A stretch of 24,423 bases of DNA from IMG/VR virus record IMGVR_UViG_3300044682_000126, positions 1-24,423 of that record. One strand, written 5' to 3'. The DNA is from a virus. This document shows, piece after piece, positions 1,686-7,833 of the stretch. Under the pieces are notes generated by a model. It was not told the DNA's origin. It searched no databases and was given only the letters and a program-made list of their open reading frames with translations. How positions within the stretch are numbered: the first letter of the stretch is position 1; each line of letters starts with the position of its first letter. The position numbers were made by a program, and so were the translations under genes.

Positions 1686-1789
1686 AGAGGCTGACCGCTG
1701 CGATGCGCCGCTGCGCTTGTATGTGCGCAGGCTGCCGGAAGAACAATGATCACTGCGGAATCTCGTCATTCGGGTGTGACGGCGGGTAG
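1673..1789 (+). CDS. 38-aa Cys-rich mini-protein
   Basis: Short ORF starting 2 nt after a strong Shine-Dalgarno (ggaggagaagg). Residues 14-21 read CACMCAGC, with further Cys at 28 and 35: six Cys in 38 aa. The N-terminus is basic (MAWLKRLTAAMRRC). It could be a metal-binding or disulfide-rich peptide. It overlaps the upstream gene by 13 nt and ends just before the likely promoter of the vWA gene. No family is recognised. Confidence 0.5.
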   Translation: MAWLKRLTAAMRRCACMCAGCRKNNDHCGISSFGCDGG

Positions 1790-1795
1790 CGCCTG

Positions 1796-1801
1796 TATTA
1801 T
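1796..1801 (+). promoter_or_regulatory. Possible -10 element (TATTAT) for the vWA gene
   Basis: TATTAT lies 10 nt before ATG 1812. This would give a transcript with only a few leader bases. No convincing -35 is seen; TGTGAC at 1775-1780 is about 15 nt upstream. Confidence 0.35.
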
Positions 1802-1811
1802 GGTGGGCCGT

Positions 1812-2510
1812 ATGACACAACCTGGTTACCGGCACCGGATCATCGTGATGGACAGGTCCGGGAGCATCAACGGCATTCTCGAAGGCCAGCAGTCCGGCTT
1901 GTCTGAGTTCTTCGGCTCCGAAGGGCAGGTTCCCGGCGACGCTACTTACTCGCTGTGGGACTTCGACACTGAGATCCGCTGCGTGCACTCGTTCGCTTCC
2001 CTGAACGAGGTGAAGGACTACAAGATCGAGCCGCGCGGCGGAACGGCTATGTACGACGCCGTCGGGGACGCGGTGAACGCCGAGGGCGCCAAGCTCGCAG
2101 GACTGCCGGAAGACAAGCGGCCCGAAGACGTCACGGTTATCGTCGCCAGCGACGGGCTGGAGAACAGCTCGCAGCGGTGGACGGGAACCGAGGTCAAGAA
2201 CCTTCTGGCGGTACAGCAGGACACGTACAAGTGGCGCGTCATCTACATGGGCTGCAACCAGGACGCGTTCAAGGAGGGCGAAAAGATCGGTATGCGGCGC
2301 GGTCTGACCGTGAACACTGTCTCCAGCGACGCCGGGTCGCGGAACAGCTGGAAAATGTCAGCGGATTACCTGTCCCGTGTTCCGGTAGCGTCTGCGGCGG
2401 CGCCAGACAGCCTGGTTTTCTCCGACAAAGAGCGTGCGCTGGGCGAGTCTGGCGACGAAGAGCCAGAGCAGGCGAAATCCCTGGAAAAGGAGGGCGATGG
2501 CGGGAATTAA
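1812..2510 (+). CDS. von Willebrand factor A (vWA) domain protein
   Basis: 232 aa from ATG 1812; ATGs at 1746 and 1800 are in frame but add unstructured residues. It has a complete-looking MIDAS metal site: D14-R-S16-G-S18 after a hydrophobic strand (HRIIVMD), Thr78 in GGTAMYDAV, and Asp114 in VIVASDG. Such domains bind divalent metal and partner proteins. The acidic C-terminus from about 200 is probably disordered. Phage vWA proteins are found in several roles, and none can be fixed here. Its stop overlaps the next gene by 14 bp. Confidence 0.85.
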   Translation: MTQPGYRHRIIVMDRSGSINGILEGQQSGLSEFFGSEGQVPGDATYSLWDFDTEIRCVHSFASLNEVKDYKIEPRGGTAMYDAVGDAVNAEGAKLAGLPEDKRPEDVTVIVASDGLENSSQRWTGTEVKNLLAVQQDTYKWRVIYMGCNQDAFKEGEKIGMRRGLTVNTVSSDAGSRNSWKMSADYLSRVPVASAAAPDSLVFSDKERALGESGDEEPEQAKSLEKEGDGGN

Positions 2511-2733
2511 CGGTCGCGGCAGGCACGGCGGCCTCATGATCGGCAGCAAGCCGTACTTTCCCGCCTCTGACGGCAACGGCTGTCCGGCCTGCGGTGCGAT
2601 CTACCCGGGCGGCCACGGTGGCTACTGCCCGTACGGCCGCCATTTCGACGAGGACGGCAAGGAAGTCTCCGTCGCGGGCAAGACGCCCGTGGAGCAGATA
2701 GAGGCCGATTTGAGGGACATGCGGAAGCCCTGA
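2497..2733 (+). CDS. Small CPAC-containing hypothetical protein
   Basis: 78 aa. ATG 2497 is chosen because aaaaggaggg lies just upstream; the longer frame from 2434 lacks such support and overlaps the vWA gene heavily. Residues 29-44 (CPACGAIYPGGHGGYC) form a CxxC...H...C cluster like a zinc ribbon. The C-terminus is a charged helix. It is the last gene of the leftmost operon, and its stop codon is the first three bases of the decamer array. Confidence 0.65.
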   Translation: MAGINGRGRHGGLMIGSKPYFPASDGNGCPACGAIYPGGHGGYCPYGRHFDEDGKEVSVAGKTPVEQIEADLRDMRKP

Positions 2734-2810
2734 CTTTACCCGGCTTCACTTAGCTTTCCTGAAGTTCAGCAAGGTTTACCGGGGTTCAGTAGAGTTCAGT
2801 CCGGTTCCGC
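2731..2810. repeat. Eight-unit array of degenerate 10-bp repeats
   Basis: Eight consecutive decamers fit NNN(C/G)TT(T/C)(A/C)(C/G)(C/T): tgaCTTTACc, cggCTTCACt, tagCTTTCCt, gaaGTTCAGc, aagGTTTACc, gggGTTCAGt, agaGTTCAGt, ccgGTTCCGc. TT at unit positions 5-6 is invariant. The first three units carry C at position 4 and the last five carry G. The array fills the gap between the last gene and the terminator hairpin. A 10-bp period puts every unit on about the same face of B-DNA. Function unknown. Confidence 0.7.
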
Positions 2811-2817
2811 AGAGACG

Positions 2818-2859
2818 CAGAAGAGCCGCCTATCCGGTCGGGGGCAGGCGGCTCTTCTG
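2818..2859. terminator. Strong bidirectional hairpin terminator
   Basis: Perfect 14-bp inverted repeat (cagaagagccgcct / aggcggctcttctg) with a 14-nt loop, lying between convergent genes. The right arm continues into gcttcg, so there is no long U tract. Typical actinobacterial terminators also often lack one. Confidence 0.8.
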
Positions 2860-2889
2860 CTTCGTAGCGCACGGGCGTGCAGGCTCAGT

Positions 2890-3885
2890 CTAGACGAGCG
2901 ACCGGAGCCACTTCAGGAACTTCTCGATGCCGTCGGCGAGCTCGGTGACGATGTTCTCGGGCGGAACCGGGGCCGGCGAGGGTGCCGGGGGCACGGGAAC
3001 TGGCGACGGGACCGGGGTAACCGACGCGGGCCAGGGTTTTCCGGTGATTTCCTGGTAATCGGCGGCGAGCTGCGTCATATTCACGCCGGCCAGGAAATCC
3101 TTGCTGCCGAGGTGCTCGGGCCAGATAACCACCCACGCTTCCTCTACCTGGTGCGACCAGAAGGCGTCGGTGAAGCTGGTTTCCTGCGCCCAGGTGATGA
3201 ACCGCTCGTCACCGCCGAGCGCGTCGCTTCCGGTCAGGTGCCGGACGGTAGCCGGGAGGTTAGCGGCGGACGCCGGAGCTGCGGGTGCTCCGTAGCCTCC
3301 GGTGACGATGCTGTGGCCGCCGTCGACCGGCGAATCCGCGTCGTAGTCCCACGGCTGGCCGTCGGCGAACTCGGTGGTGTTGACGTCGAGGACGTTGATG
3401 CCGGTCCACACGTAGCCGAACAGTGCGATCGCGGCCTTCACTTCGGCCGGGCTGGTGTAGTCGACGGCTGCGTAGCCGACGGCCTTCACCCCGTCGGGGC
3501 CGCCGTTTTCAATGAGGTCTTCGATGGCGGTCTGGATGTCCATGCCGTTGTCGTCGGCTGATCCGGGCCCGTCGTCCTGCGGCGACCCGTTCGGGTTGAA
3601 GCCGGGATTCTGGGTTTCGTAGAACGTCCAGACTTCGCTCTGCGTGGGGTAGTCCGCAGCGGAGCCGAGCAGCGCAGTAACGAGCCGCCGGACGTTCGCC
3701 CACGTGACCGCAACGCAGTCGCCCGCGGTGTCGTTGCCGAGCATCTGCCAGCCGCCGCCGAGCTCGGCCAGGTAGTCGTCGTCCGCCGGGACGACGGGCA
3801 GGACGCCGGTCAGGTAGTTCTTCAGTTGCGGGGCAGCGGCGCGCTTCGGGGACCGCCGTCCGTACTTGCCGGGAATGCGGGGCAT
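2890..3885 (-). CDS. Papain-like cysteine peptidase
   Basis: 331 aa from ATG 3885 (MPRIPGK). This start has gcgagagg 7 nt upstream; a GTG at 3909 would add 8 residues and no ribosome site. The C1/C39-like pattern is a nucleophile in NDTAGDC57VAVTWANV (Cys at the head of a helix), a catalytic His in DGGH191SIVTGGYG, and an aromatic ITW232AQ strand where papains have NSW. A Pro-rich linker (about 288-309) joins a C-terminal amphipathic helix. There is no signal peptide or membrane segment. It could process virion proteins or act as a cell-wall peptidase. It is a single gene facing the leftmost operon. Confidence 0.7.
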   Translation of the reverse strand: MPRIPGKYGRRSPKRAAAPQLKNYLTGVLPVVPADDDYLAELGGGWQMLGNDTAGDCVAVTWANVRRLVTALLGSAADYPTQSEVWTFYETQNPGFNPNGSPQDDGPGSADDNGMDIQTAIEDLIENGGPDGVKAVGYAAVDYTSPAEVKAAIALFGYVWTGINVLDVNTTEFADGQPWDYDADSPVDGGHSIVTGGYGAPAAPASAANLPATVRHLTGSDALGGDERFITWAQETSFTDAFWSHQVEEAWVVIWPEHLGSKDFLAGVNMTQLAADYQEITGKPWPASVTPVPSPVPVPPAPSPAPVPPENIVTELADGIEKFLKWLRSLV

Positions 3886-3958
3886 GGTGAACCTCTCGCT
3901 AGTGCTCACCGGCTCCCGGAGGCCACGGCTGTACCTGGCCAGCCTAGCCCGTGCAGCC

Positions 3959-3970: not shown

Positions 3971-4123
3971 GTGGAACTGGTCCTGCTTAACCCGCTTCCG
4001 AAGCGCACCCGTTTCCGGCTCTGGGTAACTGCCCGGCGGGACGGTACTGCTATTTGGTTCGCGTGCCACGGTCACCCGGGTGCCGCGGAGTGGGTGTGGC
4101 GGCTGACGGGAGCGTGGCGGTGA
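3971..4123 (+). CDS. 50-aa hypothetical protein
   Basis: GTG-started ORF of 50 codons: MELVLLNPLPKRTRFRLWVT..., Trp-rich, ending EWVWRLTGAWR. Placement exactly 6 nt after a -10 box supports leaderless translation. The stop overlaps the next start (GTGA). No family is recognised. Confidence 0.55.
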   Translation: MELVLLNPLPKRTRFRLWVTARRDGTAIWFACHGHPGAAEWVWRLTGAWR

Positions 4124-4539
4124 GCGGCCGGTGGACCGAGGCGAAGCGGGACGGCCGGTGCGCGCACTGCAAGGCGCCGTTCCTCGCCGGGGCGGAGATC
4201 TACGGCAAGAGCGCGGGCGTCTGGCTGTGCTATGACTGCGGCACCCTGGCGGAGAACGTTCCCGGCGACGTCGGGACGATCGAGGCGTCCATTATGAAGG
4301 AGCTGGCCAAGCTGCCGCTGGAGGCGTCCGAGGGCCTGATTGCGCAGACGATGCTGTCCCTGGCCCGGGACCTGGACGAGGGGGACGTCCCGCCGCGCGA
4401 GCGCACGCAGTACACCAAAGAACTGCGGCTCAACCTGGTGATGCTCCGCGACGACTACCCGGTGTCCGAGGACGACGACGATACCGATGACGCCCGCCGC
4501 CGGCGTGAGCGCCGTGCCCGTGCGGCCGGGGAAGAGTAG
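4120..4539 (+). CDS. Zinc-finger-like hypothetical protein with acidic/basic tail
   Basis: 139 aa from GTG 4120, which overlaps the upstream TGA by 4 nt; a longer frame upstream would be read through the preceding gene. Residues 15-18 (CAHC) and 37-40 (CYDC) form a two-CxxC treble-clef or zinc-ribbon pattern. A helical middle follows (EASIMKELAKLPLEASEGLIAQTMLSLARDL), then an acidic run (EDDDDTDD) and an Arg-rich tail. No specific family is recognised; a DNA-, RNA- or protein-binding adaptor is possible. Confidence 0.7.
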   Translation: MSGRWTEAKRDGRCAHCKAPFLAGAEIYGKSAGVWLCYDCGTLAENVPGDVGTIEASIMKELAKLPLEASEGLIAQTMLSLARDLDEGDVPPRERTQYTKELRLNLVMLRDDYPVSEDDDDTDDARRRRERRARAAGEE

Positions 4540-5019: not shown

Positions 5020-5055
5020 CGGGGCCAGCCCAGGAACACTTAACCCAATGATGGT

Positions 5056-5165
5056 GCGCCCCGGGCTACATTCGCCGCGGAAACCAACCATGAAGCGCCC
5101 CGGGCCAGGCGTCCTCGCGAAACCCAAATCCCGCAGCGCCCCGGGCCATCCACCGCGCGGAAACC
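5056..5165. repeat. Three ~40-bp direct repeats upstream of terL
   Basis: GCGCCCCGGGC occurs at 5056, 5095 and 5136. In every copy GAAACC begins exactly 24 nt after the repeat start (5080, 5119, 5160). The sequence between is variable but ends in CG-rich bases. Spacing is 39 and 41 bp, so the copies are in near-constant register. Confidence 0.75.
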
Positions 5166-5370
5166 TGCTAGCTAACGCCCGGAGGCAGGAGTAGGCGCGC
5201 ACCGTCGCCTCGTTCTTAGGATGTCGCTGGCGACCTGGCAAGAGGACTGCCAGTTGCCCAGCAGTTACCTCCTACCAGGACGAACCCCAGCATAACGTGC
5301 GGTGTTCCGTTCCGCTGCGCATTTTTCTTGTTCCGGGCCACATACAGCACGGTACCCATAGACGTGACGC

Positions 5371-5408: not shown

Positions 5409-7049
5409 GTGACCACACCTGTTCTGTACGGCAGCCAGCGCCCGCGCTTCTGGACGTGCCCGCCGCGGCACACCGGACCGGTTGAGGGCTGCCGTACCTG
5501 CGCGCTGATTTCCGGGGACTACGAACCGGGAACCGGCTGCGGCGACGCGCAGGCACTCGACGTGCTCGCGTGGGCCAGGGACGCTGCCGGGTACGAACCT
5601 GACCCGTGGCAGGAATGGGTGCTGACCAACGCGCTCGGCACCGAGCCGGATTCGACCTGGGCGGCGTCCGACGTCGGGCTGATCGTGTCTCGCCAGAATG
5701 GTAAGGGTACCGTCCTGGAGATCCGGGAGCTCGGCGGCCTGTTCGTGCTGGGCGAAGAACTGATTATTCACACCTCGCACGAGTTCAAGACCAGCGCTGA
5801 GCATTTCCGCCGGGTGAAGGCGGTCTTCGACGACCATGCCGCGCTGCGCAAGCGGGTGAAGCGGATCGCCGGCTCGCACGGCGAGGAAGCCATCGAGCTG
5901 TTTCCGCAGCCGACCCTGATCTTCGGGCCGGGCCGGAAGCAGATTACCCGCAGGGTAGCCGGACGGCTGCGTTTCCTGGCGCGGTCTAAGGGCTCCGGCC
6001 GTGGTTTCTCCTGTGACTGCCTGGTGTACGACGAGGCGATGATCCTGTCCGAGGACCAGGTGGCCGCGTCGCTGCCGACGATGTCCGCCCGCGCCAATCC
6101 GCAGATCTGGTACGCCGGGTCAGCCGGCAACGAGGACAGCTTCCAGTTCGCCGCCGTGCGCCAGCGGATCGTCCGCAACTCGAAGGACCTGTTCGGCGCC
6201 GAGTGGAGCATCGACCCGCATAACGACGCCTGCCCGCGTGACGAGCTGACGGGCCGCGAGACGAATTACTTCATCACCTGCACGAAGCACGACGACCGCG
6301 ACGACCCGCGCTCCTGGGCGAAGGCCAATCCCGGTTACGGGTACCGGATCAGCGAGAAGTTCACCCGGAACACCGAGATGGCGAACATGCCGCCGCAGAA
6401 GTTCGACATGGAGCGGCTGGCCGTCGGGAAGTGGCCGCAGCCGGAGGCGCCCTGGGCGGTGATCAGCGAGATTGCCTGGAACAAGCTGGCCGTCAGCCAG
6501 GAGAGCGCCGGCTTCCCGGTTCAGCCCATCGTGTTCGCGCTCGACATCGACGAAGACGGACGCAGCGCGACGATCAGCGCCGCCTGGGACCACCCGGGCA
6601 GCAAGCGCGTCGTCCTGGAAATCCCGAAGGGCTGCGCCCGGCAGGGCACCGACTGGGTCCTGGAGAAGGCCGACAAGCTGTACAAGAAGCGCCAGCCCAT
6701 CGGGATTGCCATTCCCAAGAGCGGGCCGGCCGCGGCGCTGATCCCGGGCGGGACGAAGCTGTGGCGCGAGCGGTGCATCGCGGTCGGCACCGCCGAAGAG
6801 GCCGCCGCGTTCGCCTGGCTGCTGCAGCAGGTCCGCAACGACAATCTCTGGCATTTCGGCCGGGAAGGCGCCCCTACCCTGTGGCACGCGATCGCCACGG
6901 CCGCTACCCGGGTCGTCGGGGACGGCGGCAAGGCCTGGTCACGGCGGGACAGTGAAAGCGACATCACCCCGGTGACCAGCGCTACCCTCGCCGCTTATGT
7001 TTTGGACAAATACCGGCGGAGTTACGACCTGATGGATTCGGTTGCCTGA
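5409..7049 (+). CDS. terL: Terminase large subunit
   Basis: 546 aa. The ATPase and nuclease of the DNA-packaging motor, which docks on the portal and fills the head. Walker A-like SRQNGKGT at 94-101, Walker B CLVYDEA at 204-210 with the catalytic Glu209, and a coupling-motif candidate AGSAG at 236-240. The RNase-H-like nuclease domain starts at ALDIDEDGRSA (377-387), with further acidic residues later. The N-terminus has a Cys group (17, 28, 31, 44) that could bind zinc. The length is normal. No small terminase is visible, so it may lie outside the window, be unrecognisable or be missing. The leaderless GTG start fits the promoter geometry. Confidence 0.95.
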   Translation: MTTPVLYGSQRPRFWTCPPRHTGPVEGCRTCALISGDYEPGTGCGDAQALDVLAWARDAAGYEPDPWQEWVLTNALGTEPDSTWAASDVGLIVSRQNGKGTVLEIRELGGLFVLGEELIIHTSHEFKTSAEHFRRVKAVFDDHAALRKRVKRIAGSHGEEAIELFPQPTLIFGPGRKQITRRVAGRLRFLARSKGSGRGFSCDCLVYDEAMILSEDQVAASLPTMSARANPQIWYAGSAGNEDSFQFAAVRQRIVRNSKDLFGAEWSIDPHNDACPRDELTGRETNYFITCTKHDDRDDPRSWAKANPGYGYRISEKFTRNTEMANMPPQKFDMERLAVGKWPQPEAPWAVISEIAWNKLAVSQESAGFPVQPIVFALDIDEDGRSATISAAWDHPGSKRVVLEIPKGCARQGTDWVLEKADKLYKKRQPIGIAIPKSGPAAALIPGGTKLWRERCIAVGTAEEAAAFAWLLQQVRNDNLWHFGREGAPTLWHAIATAATRVVGDGGKAWSRRDSESDITPVTSATLAAYVLDKYRRSYDLMDSVA

Positions 7050-7094
7050 CGGGCGCAGGACGTATGGGTTCCGTATAAATACTGGCCCGTCAGG
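7045..7094. repeat. 10-bp inverted repeat spanning the terL stop
   Basis: CCTGACGGGC (7045-7054) and GCCCGTCAGG (7085-7094) are perfect complements separated by 30 nt. The left arm includes the terL stop codon. It could end transcription or protect the mRNA 3' end. Confidence 0.5.
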
Positions 7095-7109
7095 TGCCAG
7101 CTGGCACTT
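7092..7109. repeat. Palindrome copy B, AGGTGCCAGCTGGCACTT
   Basis: Contains the perfect 14-bp palindrome GTGCCAGCTGGCAC. Related to copies at 1629-1646 and 17313-17330. It abuts the CCA end of the first tRNA-like element. Confidence 0.45.
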
Positions 7110-7187
7110 GGAGCCCCGCTCGGGAGTTGAACCCGTGTACTCCGCTGGTTACGCGCGTAACCGGAGACTGCAGCCCGCAGCCGGGGC
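7109..7187 (-). other. Degenerate tRNA-like element 1
   Basis: On the minus strand the 3' half looks like a tRNA: a T arm ACGGG-TTCAACT-CCCGA with a canonical loop, then an acceptor arm GCGGGGC, discriminator T and encoded CCA. The 5' end GCCCCG pairs with CGGGGC. The D loop lacks the GG pair. Where the anticodon arm should be there is a perfect 16-bp palindrome (7147-7162) that cannot give a 7-nt loop or U33. It is therefore a decayed tRNA, a tRNA mimic or an attP-like tRNA 3' fragment, not a normal tRNA. Confidence 0.4.
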
Positions 7188-7202
7188 AAAGAGGGTTAAG
7201 AG

Positions 7203-7282
7203 AGCCCGGTGCAGGGGTCAAACCTGCTTCACTCCAGATCGGACACGACGCTTTTCCGGGTGACGGGTCGGTTCCACCGGGC
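7203..7282 (-). other. Degenerate tRNA-like element 2
   Basis: On the minus strand a perfect 7-bp acceptor stem (GCCCGGT/ACCGGGC) encloses about 80 nt. A perfect T stem (GCAGG/CCTGC) with loop TTTGACC directly precedes the 3' acceptor strand, as in a tRNA. Position 56 of the T loop is T instead of the invariant C. No normal D or anticodon arm can be drawn, and CCA is not encoded. It lies 15 nt from element 1 in tandem. Confidence 0.35.
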
Positions 7283-7314
7283 ACTCAGTTAGTGTAACTA
7301 CTGTGCATGCGCGC

Positions 7315-7833
7315 CTATTCCAGGGGCGCGTGCAGCCGGATCAGGACGTCGTCGGTCTCGGCGAGCATCGCGGCGATGAAGGCGTCGGCGTCGTCTGCCG
7401 GGACCTGCAGAACCCGGTGCGCACCAGAGATTTCGCTTGCGGGAACAGGTTCGTCCGTGACAGCCGGCATTTCCTTCGTGTCCGCGGTCCGGTGGTCGTA
7501 GTTGAAGACGTACGGGTCCGGGCTGTACACGGCATCCTGCCCCTCGGTCGCGGGCGTCCAGGCGATCAGCGGCCCGGCGTACCCCGGGGGCGGGGTTTCC
7601 TGTGCTTCCAGGTACCGGGCCAGCCCCGTTTCCGGCCAGCTTTCGGGGTAGTCGTAGGTTTCGCCGTTCCACGGCTGCAGCGGGACGTCCGCCATGTCCT
7701 GGGCAAAGGCTGCGCGCATTTCCCGGTCACCCTGACGGCTGCGGCGGATGTCGCGGAACCATACGGCTCCGGTGACGGCGAGCAGGACGGCGAGGGCGAT
7801 CATCCCGGCCCCGGCCCAGTTCGTGACAGTCAT
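7315..7833 (-). CDS. Single-pass membrane protein, lysis-cassette candidate
   Basis: 172 aa. One N-terminal membrane helix (about residues 8-26, AGAGMIALAVLLAVTGAVWF) is followed by basic residues (RDIRRSRQ), so the long Pro/Asp-rich remainder probably faces the cytoplasm or lies along the membrane. A strong Shine-Dalgarno (gaggagaagaa) precedes the ATG, which overlaps the stop of the upstream gene (ATGA). It is the last of three minus-strand genes headed by a secreted transglycosylase. A helper of lysis is therefore possible, but there is no clear holin or spanin signature. Confidence 0.65.
   Translation of the reverse strand: MTVTNWAGAGMIALAVLLAVTGAVWFRDIRRSRQGDREMRAAFAQDMADVPLQPWNGETYDYPESWPETGLARYLEAQETPPPGYAGPLIAWTPATEGQDAVYSPDPYVFNYDHRTADTKEMPAVTDEPVPASEISGAHRVLQVPADDADAFIAAMLAETDDVLIRLHAPLE

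Follow-up and report, generated by a model that had tools for sequence, protein, structure and literature searches.

In a 24.4-kb genome fragment from an uncultivated tailed phage, which carries terminase, portal, protease and major capsid genes, we found eight consecutive 10-bp units in strict phase, and this array is conserved beside a homologous hairpin in the phage's terminase lineage. We read the array, with about even confidence, as a cis-acting DNA site for the docking or wrapping of an oligomeric protein rather than as a coding, RNA-fold or guide element. The whole stretch that was analysed (24,423 nucleotides) is referred to below as the window, and its relevant features are collected in Table 1. 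All arrays described here come from metagenomic contigs; the element is a conserved, single-copy, non-coding component of large soil phages (contigs of 84–122 kb) and has no annotated counterpart in named phages.

Table 1 The phased array and neighbouring features of the window.
Feature	Position	Strand	Remarks
254-aa protein, von Willebrand A-like (phrog_7371), DRSGS motif	1746..2510	+	Motif read from sequence
78-aa zinc-ribbon-like small protein gene	2497..2733	+	Stop codon forms first 3 bases of unit 1; 72% identical relative in L007
Phased array, eight 10-bp units	2731..2810	+	Core [A/G][C/G]TT[T/C] at positions 3–7 of unit; z = 11.4 versus dinucleotide shuffles
GC-rich hairpin, bidirectional terminator-like, 3' of array	2814..2863	+	Same place in 7/7 lineage orthologs; absent beside sister-phage arrays
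Convergent gene, phrog_19005	2890..3909	-	Present in many phages that lack the array
Zn-ribbon and helical protein, upstream of terL	4120..4539	+	Conserved in lineage
Large terminase (terL, phrog_9)	5409..7049	+	Defines array-carrying lineage

Read directly, the units are TGACTTTACC, CGGCTTCACT, TAGCTTTCCT, GAAGTTCAGC, AAGGTTTACC, GGGGTTCAGT, AGAGTTCAGT and CCGGTTCCGC. The preliminary description of this sequence had pointed to a shared TT at positions 5–6, a change of type after the third unit and a start at a stop codon, and all of these were recovered: TT stands at positions 5–6 of all eight decamers (2731–2810), the base before it goes from C to G after unit 3, and unit 1 opens on TGA (2731–2733). 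The period-10 column score of the array was 0.588, compared with 0.342 ± 0.021 for its dinucleotide shuffles (0 of 5000 as high). The array is also the top period-10 place of the window and lies above the maximum of 60 whole-window shuffles. Because TRF at a score of 30 does not report it, we describe it as a phased degenerate array and not as an ordinary tandem repeat.

The hairpin 3' of the array has 15–18 pairs, with the stem starting at 2814–2817 and a loop that contains CGGTCGGG; the related CAGTCGGG is found in L008, L009 and L014. Searches of Pfam and PHROG gave no match for the 78-aa product. The von Willebrand A-like gene is not tied to the array, as relatives G001 and G003 carry the gene without it, and the convergent gene is not its partner, since many array-less phages have a phrog_19005 gene. 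Another candidate partner, orfB, was rejected on the same kind of observation, occurring as it does without the array. The product of the conserved gene upstream of terL is possibly the small terminase. Also upstream of terL, at about 5055–5175, the window holds three copies of a GCGCCCCGGGC...GCGGAAACC element spaced about 40 bp apart, and similar non-coding repeats occur in L009 and L285. The operon that had been labelled early is the leftmost one and adjoins the cos end, and its early expression may be presumed.

The large terminase of the window shares 80–85% of its residues with those of a small set of IMG/VR contigs; identity to those of named actinophages such as Rhodococcus phage REQ1 drops to about 35%. 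Within this lineage, all seven members covering the locus (the window, L014 (945), L008 (1246), L010 (3797), L062/G005 (contig 13749), L009/G004 (1064) and L012/G002) carry the decamer consensus with its 10-bp period kept, in seven to eight in-register units directly 5' of the homologous hairpin; in L012/G002 the array (about 1521–1590) has seven units, the first three of which overlap a gene end. Each of the seven arrays is significant alone (z of 4.7–11.4), and when they are pooled, identity between positions is highest at lags of 10, 20 and 30 (z of about 10) and falls under expectation at 5 and 15. Pooling the decamers gives the consensus T T Y N S S S N R G, with RGTTY as its core. Conservation is concentrated in four columns (T1 46/51, T2 43/51, Y3 48/51 and R9 46/51 of the pooled units), with columns 4–8 near background, and between phages the aligned units are identical at 0.90 and 0.86 in the T1 and T2 columns and at about 0.5 in the spacer columns. 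Orthologous arrays vary in length by whole units, and relatives of 84–122 kb have one array per genome. When all strong hairpins upstream of terL were compared across the lineage and sister phages, at least five phased TT in the preceding 85 bases were seen at the seven homologous ones alone. BLAST of the array locus against named phages gave no match beyond chance, and an Rfam search returned tRNAs only.

Phages with less similar terminases (sister phages) were scanned for 10-bp A/T periodicity, and each array found was compared with shuffles of the region in which it lies. In four of the seven, A/T steps phased at 10 bp form an array close to the left (cos) end, at the left-region maxima of L070 (118), L301/L077 (405), L068 (496) and L297 (1368), where 0, 0, 1 and 2 of 300 shuffles, respectively, for L070, L301, L068 and L297, reached the observed signal; the array of L301 is partly a 20-bp duplication. 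The other three (L296, L299 and L300) show no significant array. Sister arrays either extend across the 3' end of a gene for a small cysteine-rich protein or adjoin the genome end, and are followed by a ribosome-binding site or tRNAs and not by a hairpin. AA and TT share columns in these arrays (three AA and five TT in L297; two AA and six TT in L070), and this interchange indicates that the weak pair is what is kept, a property of double-stranded DNA. A/T spectral power peaks at 10.0 bp in the sister arrays and most lineage arrays, falls by 10.5 and is low at 10.75–11; the exception is L062, with a weak A/T spectrum though its RGTTY array is significant.

The position of the array relative to the genome end could be read from nine independent contigs (L007, L008, L009, L012, L068, L070, L071, L077 and L299) whose base 1 in each case lies 9–10 bases ahead of a conserved TCTCTCCCC...GAAAA block; one of these contigs has a 9-base remnant resembling an Illumina adapter in front. 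This shared start is probably the physical left (cos) end of the phage family, probably with a cohesive overhang of about 10 bases. Where the end is known, the array lies 0.1–1.6 kb to its right, and it lies 2.7–4.3 kb before terL; in G005 a block similar to TCTCTCCCC...GAAAA stands about 1.5 kb left of the array. The distance from array to end is not fixed, being at least 2.7 kb in the window and at least 3.8 kb in L010, both of which stop short of the end.

Taken together, the strict integer phase, the preference for A/T rather than T, the indifference to coding borders and the lack of a consistent RNA fold favour double-stranded DNA that would be read on one face. Fold energies of the array RNA are inconsistent across the seven orthologs, with L008 and L010 more stable than shuffles. 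In the proposed mechanism, seven to eight A/T steps with exact 10-bp spacing would lie on one helix face over 70–85 bp and serve as docking points for a protein that attaches as an oligomer or has the DNA wound around it. DNA wrapped in a left-handed sense through about one superhelical turn would be expected to show a surface period such as the 10.0 bp seen here, which is shorter than the 10.5 bp of free DNA and departs from it in the opposite direction to the 10.75 bp of gyrase. Eight contacts over 80 bp may amount to about one turn. The net intrinsic bend of the arrays is not above that of shuffles (wedge-model z of −0.5 to 1.3), so that any bend would have to come from a protein, unless the protein aligned along the face instead. 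The suggestion in the preliminary description that a protein or polymer binds one helix face thus stands as the best-supported reading, given the strict period, the selection on A/T steps, the AA/TT interchange in sister phages, the overlap with coding ends and the changes of length by whole units, while the binding itself we infer. Since each genome has a single array, placed close to its left cos end and ahead of the terminase genes, the role would more likely be in handling the genome (folding, initiation of replication, entry or packaging) or in controlling the left operon than in general transcription termination. A more speculative extension, to which we give little weight, is that its eight contacts at 10.0 bp make the phage DNA coil through about one left-handed superhelical turn close to one genome end, around an oligomer encoded by phage or host; a tailed phage would then carry a nucleosome-like wrap written into its sequence. 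With a strict 10.0-bp period and free bases between the steps, the element offers a clean natural setting in which to test indirect readout and wrapping, and its location near the cos end would expose a new protein in genome entry, folding or packaging.

An RNA-level role is unlikely but deserves weighing. Transcribed in the 3' UTR of the leftmost operon, the 70–80 nt array could load an oligomeric RNA-binding protein, of the Rho type or another, and form a composite terminator with the hairpin. In 7/7 orthologs the array does come immediately before the hairpin that ends the operon, and in sense orientation; this includes L012, where the hairpin lies between two co-directional operons. Plus-strand T dominates in these arrays, and an RNA element would show the same orientation. 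Because the orthologs are related by descent, however, this orientation is not independent evidence. The link to a terminator is real in the lineage of the window and not general, as in sister phages the array lacks a hairpin and extends over coding ends, and each genome has it at only one of many hairpins. Our first idea, a general termination element, was rejected for this reason: no other examined hairpin in these genomes has an array. The length matches that of rut sites and pyrimidines recur regularly, but the published rule of C>G over about 78 nt (PMC6407284) fails in five of seven orthologs, where the C/G ratio is 0.61–0.88 (1.05 in the window and 1.38 in L012). TT is kept rather than YC, and G is conserved beside the core. 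The earlier proposal of a Rho-type site is therefore disfavoured, though it keeps some probability because actinobacterial Rho may tolerate G-rich RNA. A rut site is expected to be unstructured RNA with cytosines every 11–13 nt; here a pyrimidine core recurs every 10 nt with T rather than C as the conserved base. As a separate observation, the stretch from stop codon to array in L008 (about 1160–1240) and L062 (about 7000–7085) could form a pseudoknotted RNA in which GCGGTC/GACCGC is crossed with GCAGCGGC/GCCGCTGC, and the GCAGCGGC/GCCGCTGC stem shows two compensatory changes between the two phages.

A packaging element of the pac or cosB kind, in which a small-terminase ring binds the eight sites and the DNA is wrapped around the ring, seems distinctly unlikely. 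The array tracks the terminase lineage and lies close to the cos end and the terminase genes, and the SF6/SPP1 pac model likewise has about 100 bp of wrapped DNA with phased A/T (PMC4737164). The varying distance to the end argues against it, however, and the cos end has its own conserved block, in nine contigs, at the place where the HK97 small terminase binds, 15–29 bp from the cos cut (PMC11331095). With that block occupying the HK97-type place, the array need not be the packaging site.

The array might also be a decayed 10-bp tandem repeat that is functionless and kept by descent, which we regard as improbable. Ordinary 10-bp GTTY satellites are common in viral contigs and, unrelated to the array, made up most of the matches to the GTTY decamer pattern across the collection, and units are gained and lost between orthologs; but the unequal decay of the columns (T1 at 46/51, columns 4–8 near background) argues against a neutral relic, and the phase is kept in sister phages despite their different sequence. 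The centromere-like partition site and the iteron origin that had also been proposed fared no better. ParA (PF13614, PF01656) has no match in nine records, being absent everywhere searched, which speaks against partition, and ParB (PF02195, ParB_N) gave in the same nine records a single sub-threshold match, in G005 at 102 kb, about 89 kb from the array. The actin-like ParM family (PF06406) matched neither the records nor the control genomes, and searches for Lsr2 and StbA returned nothing usable. No initiator gene for an iteron origin was recognised near the array, and the usual replication iterons are longer than its 10-bp units.

Least credible is a programmable guide RNA akin to those of VIPR, in which the repeat would be 10 nt long rather than 5 nt and the hairpin would be the tail: a phage-encoded fixed core alternates with variable bases, the hairpin has a conserved loop and the relative G002 has a likely VIPR locus, but there is no 5-nt period in the pooled orthologs (lag 5, z = −2.6; lag 10, z = 10.1) where vrRNAs of the newly described VIPR systems (preprint PMC13142463) have tandem phased 5-nt repeats (YNNGG or related) with a structured 3' tail and act with a Vipr protein, the variable bases are partly conserved between phages rather than hypervariable, the arrays of G002 are AGY/NN pentamers elsewhere in the genome, and the Vipr-like phrog_4652 and C-terminal RAMP G-loop are absent from the array-bearing 117-kb and 84-kb relatives (G004 and G005), records that may be incomplete and a family that does not cover other Vipr types. 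A YNNRS frame suits the 17 pentamers of the window by eye and was rejected on the pooled orthologs; as far as these tests reach, the array is not a canonical vrRNA, and an unusual VIPR type is improbable.

In the 122-kb relative, L269 11797–13545 (contig G002 about 91395–93140) is a likely VIPR locus. Between two long AGY/NN pentamer arrays it has a T5orf172-domain gene and a 214-aa phrog_4652 protein with a C-terminal glycine loop (GRGVGIGNARKLGHGRF) and homologs in Felix O1-like E. coli phages and Gordonia phages; among G002, G004 and G005, only G002 has phrog_4652. The locus lies between separate genes for the exonuclease and polymerase domains of a family A DNA polymerase (L269 8713–14754), the exonuclease domain being fused to a D5-like primase/helicase region. 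GGY/NN-type pentamer arrays occur on either strand in related soil phages (L134 11266; L105 about 5060–5210; L113 about 7000–7700; L130 15413; L027 7031), in gaps beside terminase, portal or other genes, and resemble VIPR guide RNAs.

Several known systems share features with the array. Actinophage parABS sites (parS-L and parS-R of RedRock) and ParR-type arrays of 10–11 bp consist of seven to ten short asymmetric direct repeats; the array is like them in its phased short asymmetric direct repeats and differs in that the nine records have no ParA. VIPR vrRNA arrays (PMC13142463) are also phage-encoded phased degenerate repeats followed by a hairpin, but here the period is 10 nt and not 5 nt, two large relatives gave no Vipr gene and the spacer is not hypervariable. 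Rut sites (PMC6407284) likewise span 70–80 nt with regular pyrimidines and a hairpin downstream, but the array has G > C in most orthologs, TT rather than YC and one copy per genome. Gyrase wrapping motifs (E. coli gyrase sites and the Mu SGS; PMC6379681) have a 10.75-bp period in two arms around a 36-bp non-periodic centre, and gyrase acts downstream of transcription units (PMC6379681). The array shares with them a phased A/T–G/C alternation over tens of bp and the prospect of DNA wrapping, but this candidate was rejected, as the period of the array is 10.0 and unbroken, with low power at 10.75 and no 36-bp centre. The pac site of SPP1/SF6, bound by the small-terminase HTH ring (PMC4737164), differs in that the array is not within terS and a separate conserved block stands at the cos end, and is alike in about 100 bp placed around a ring, in A/T runs in helical phase and in its location near the terminase genes.
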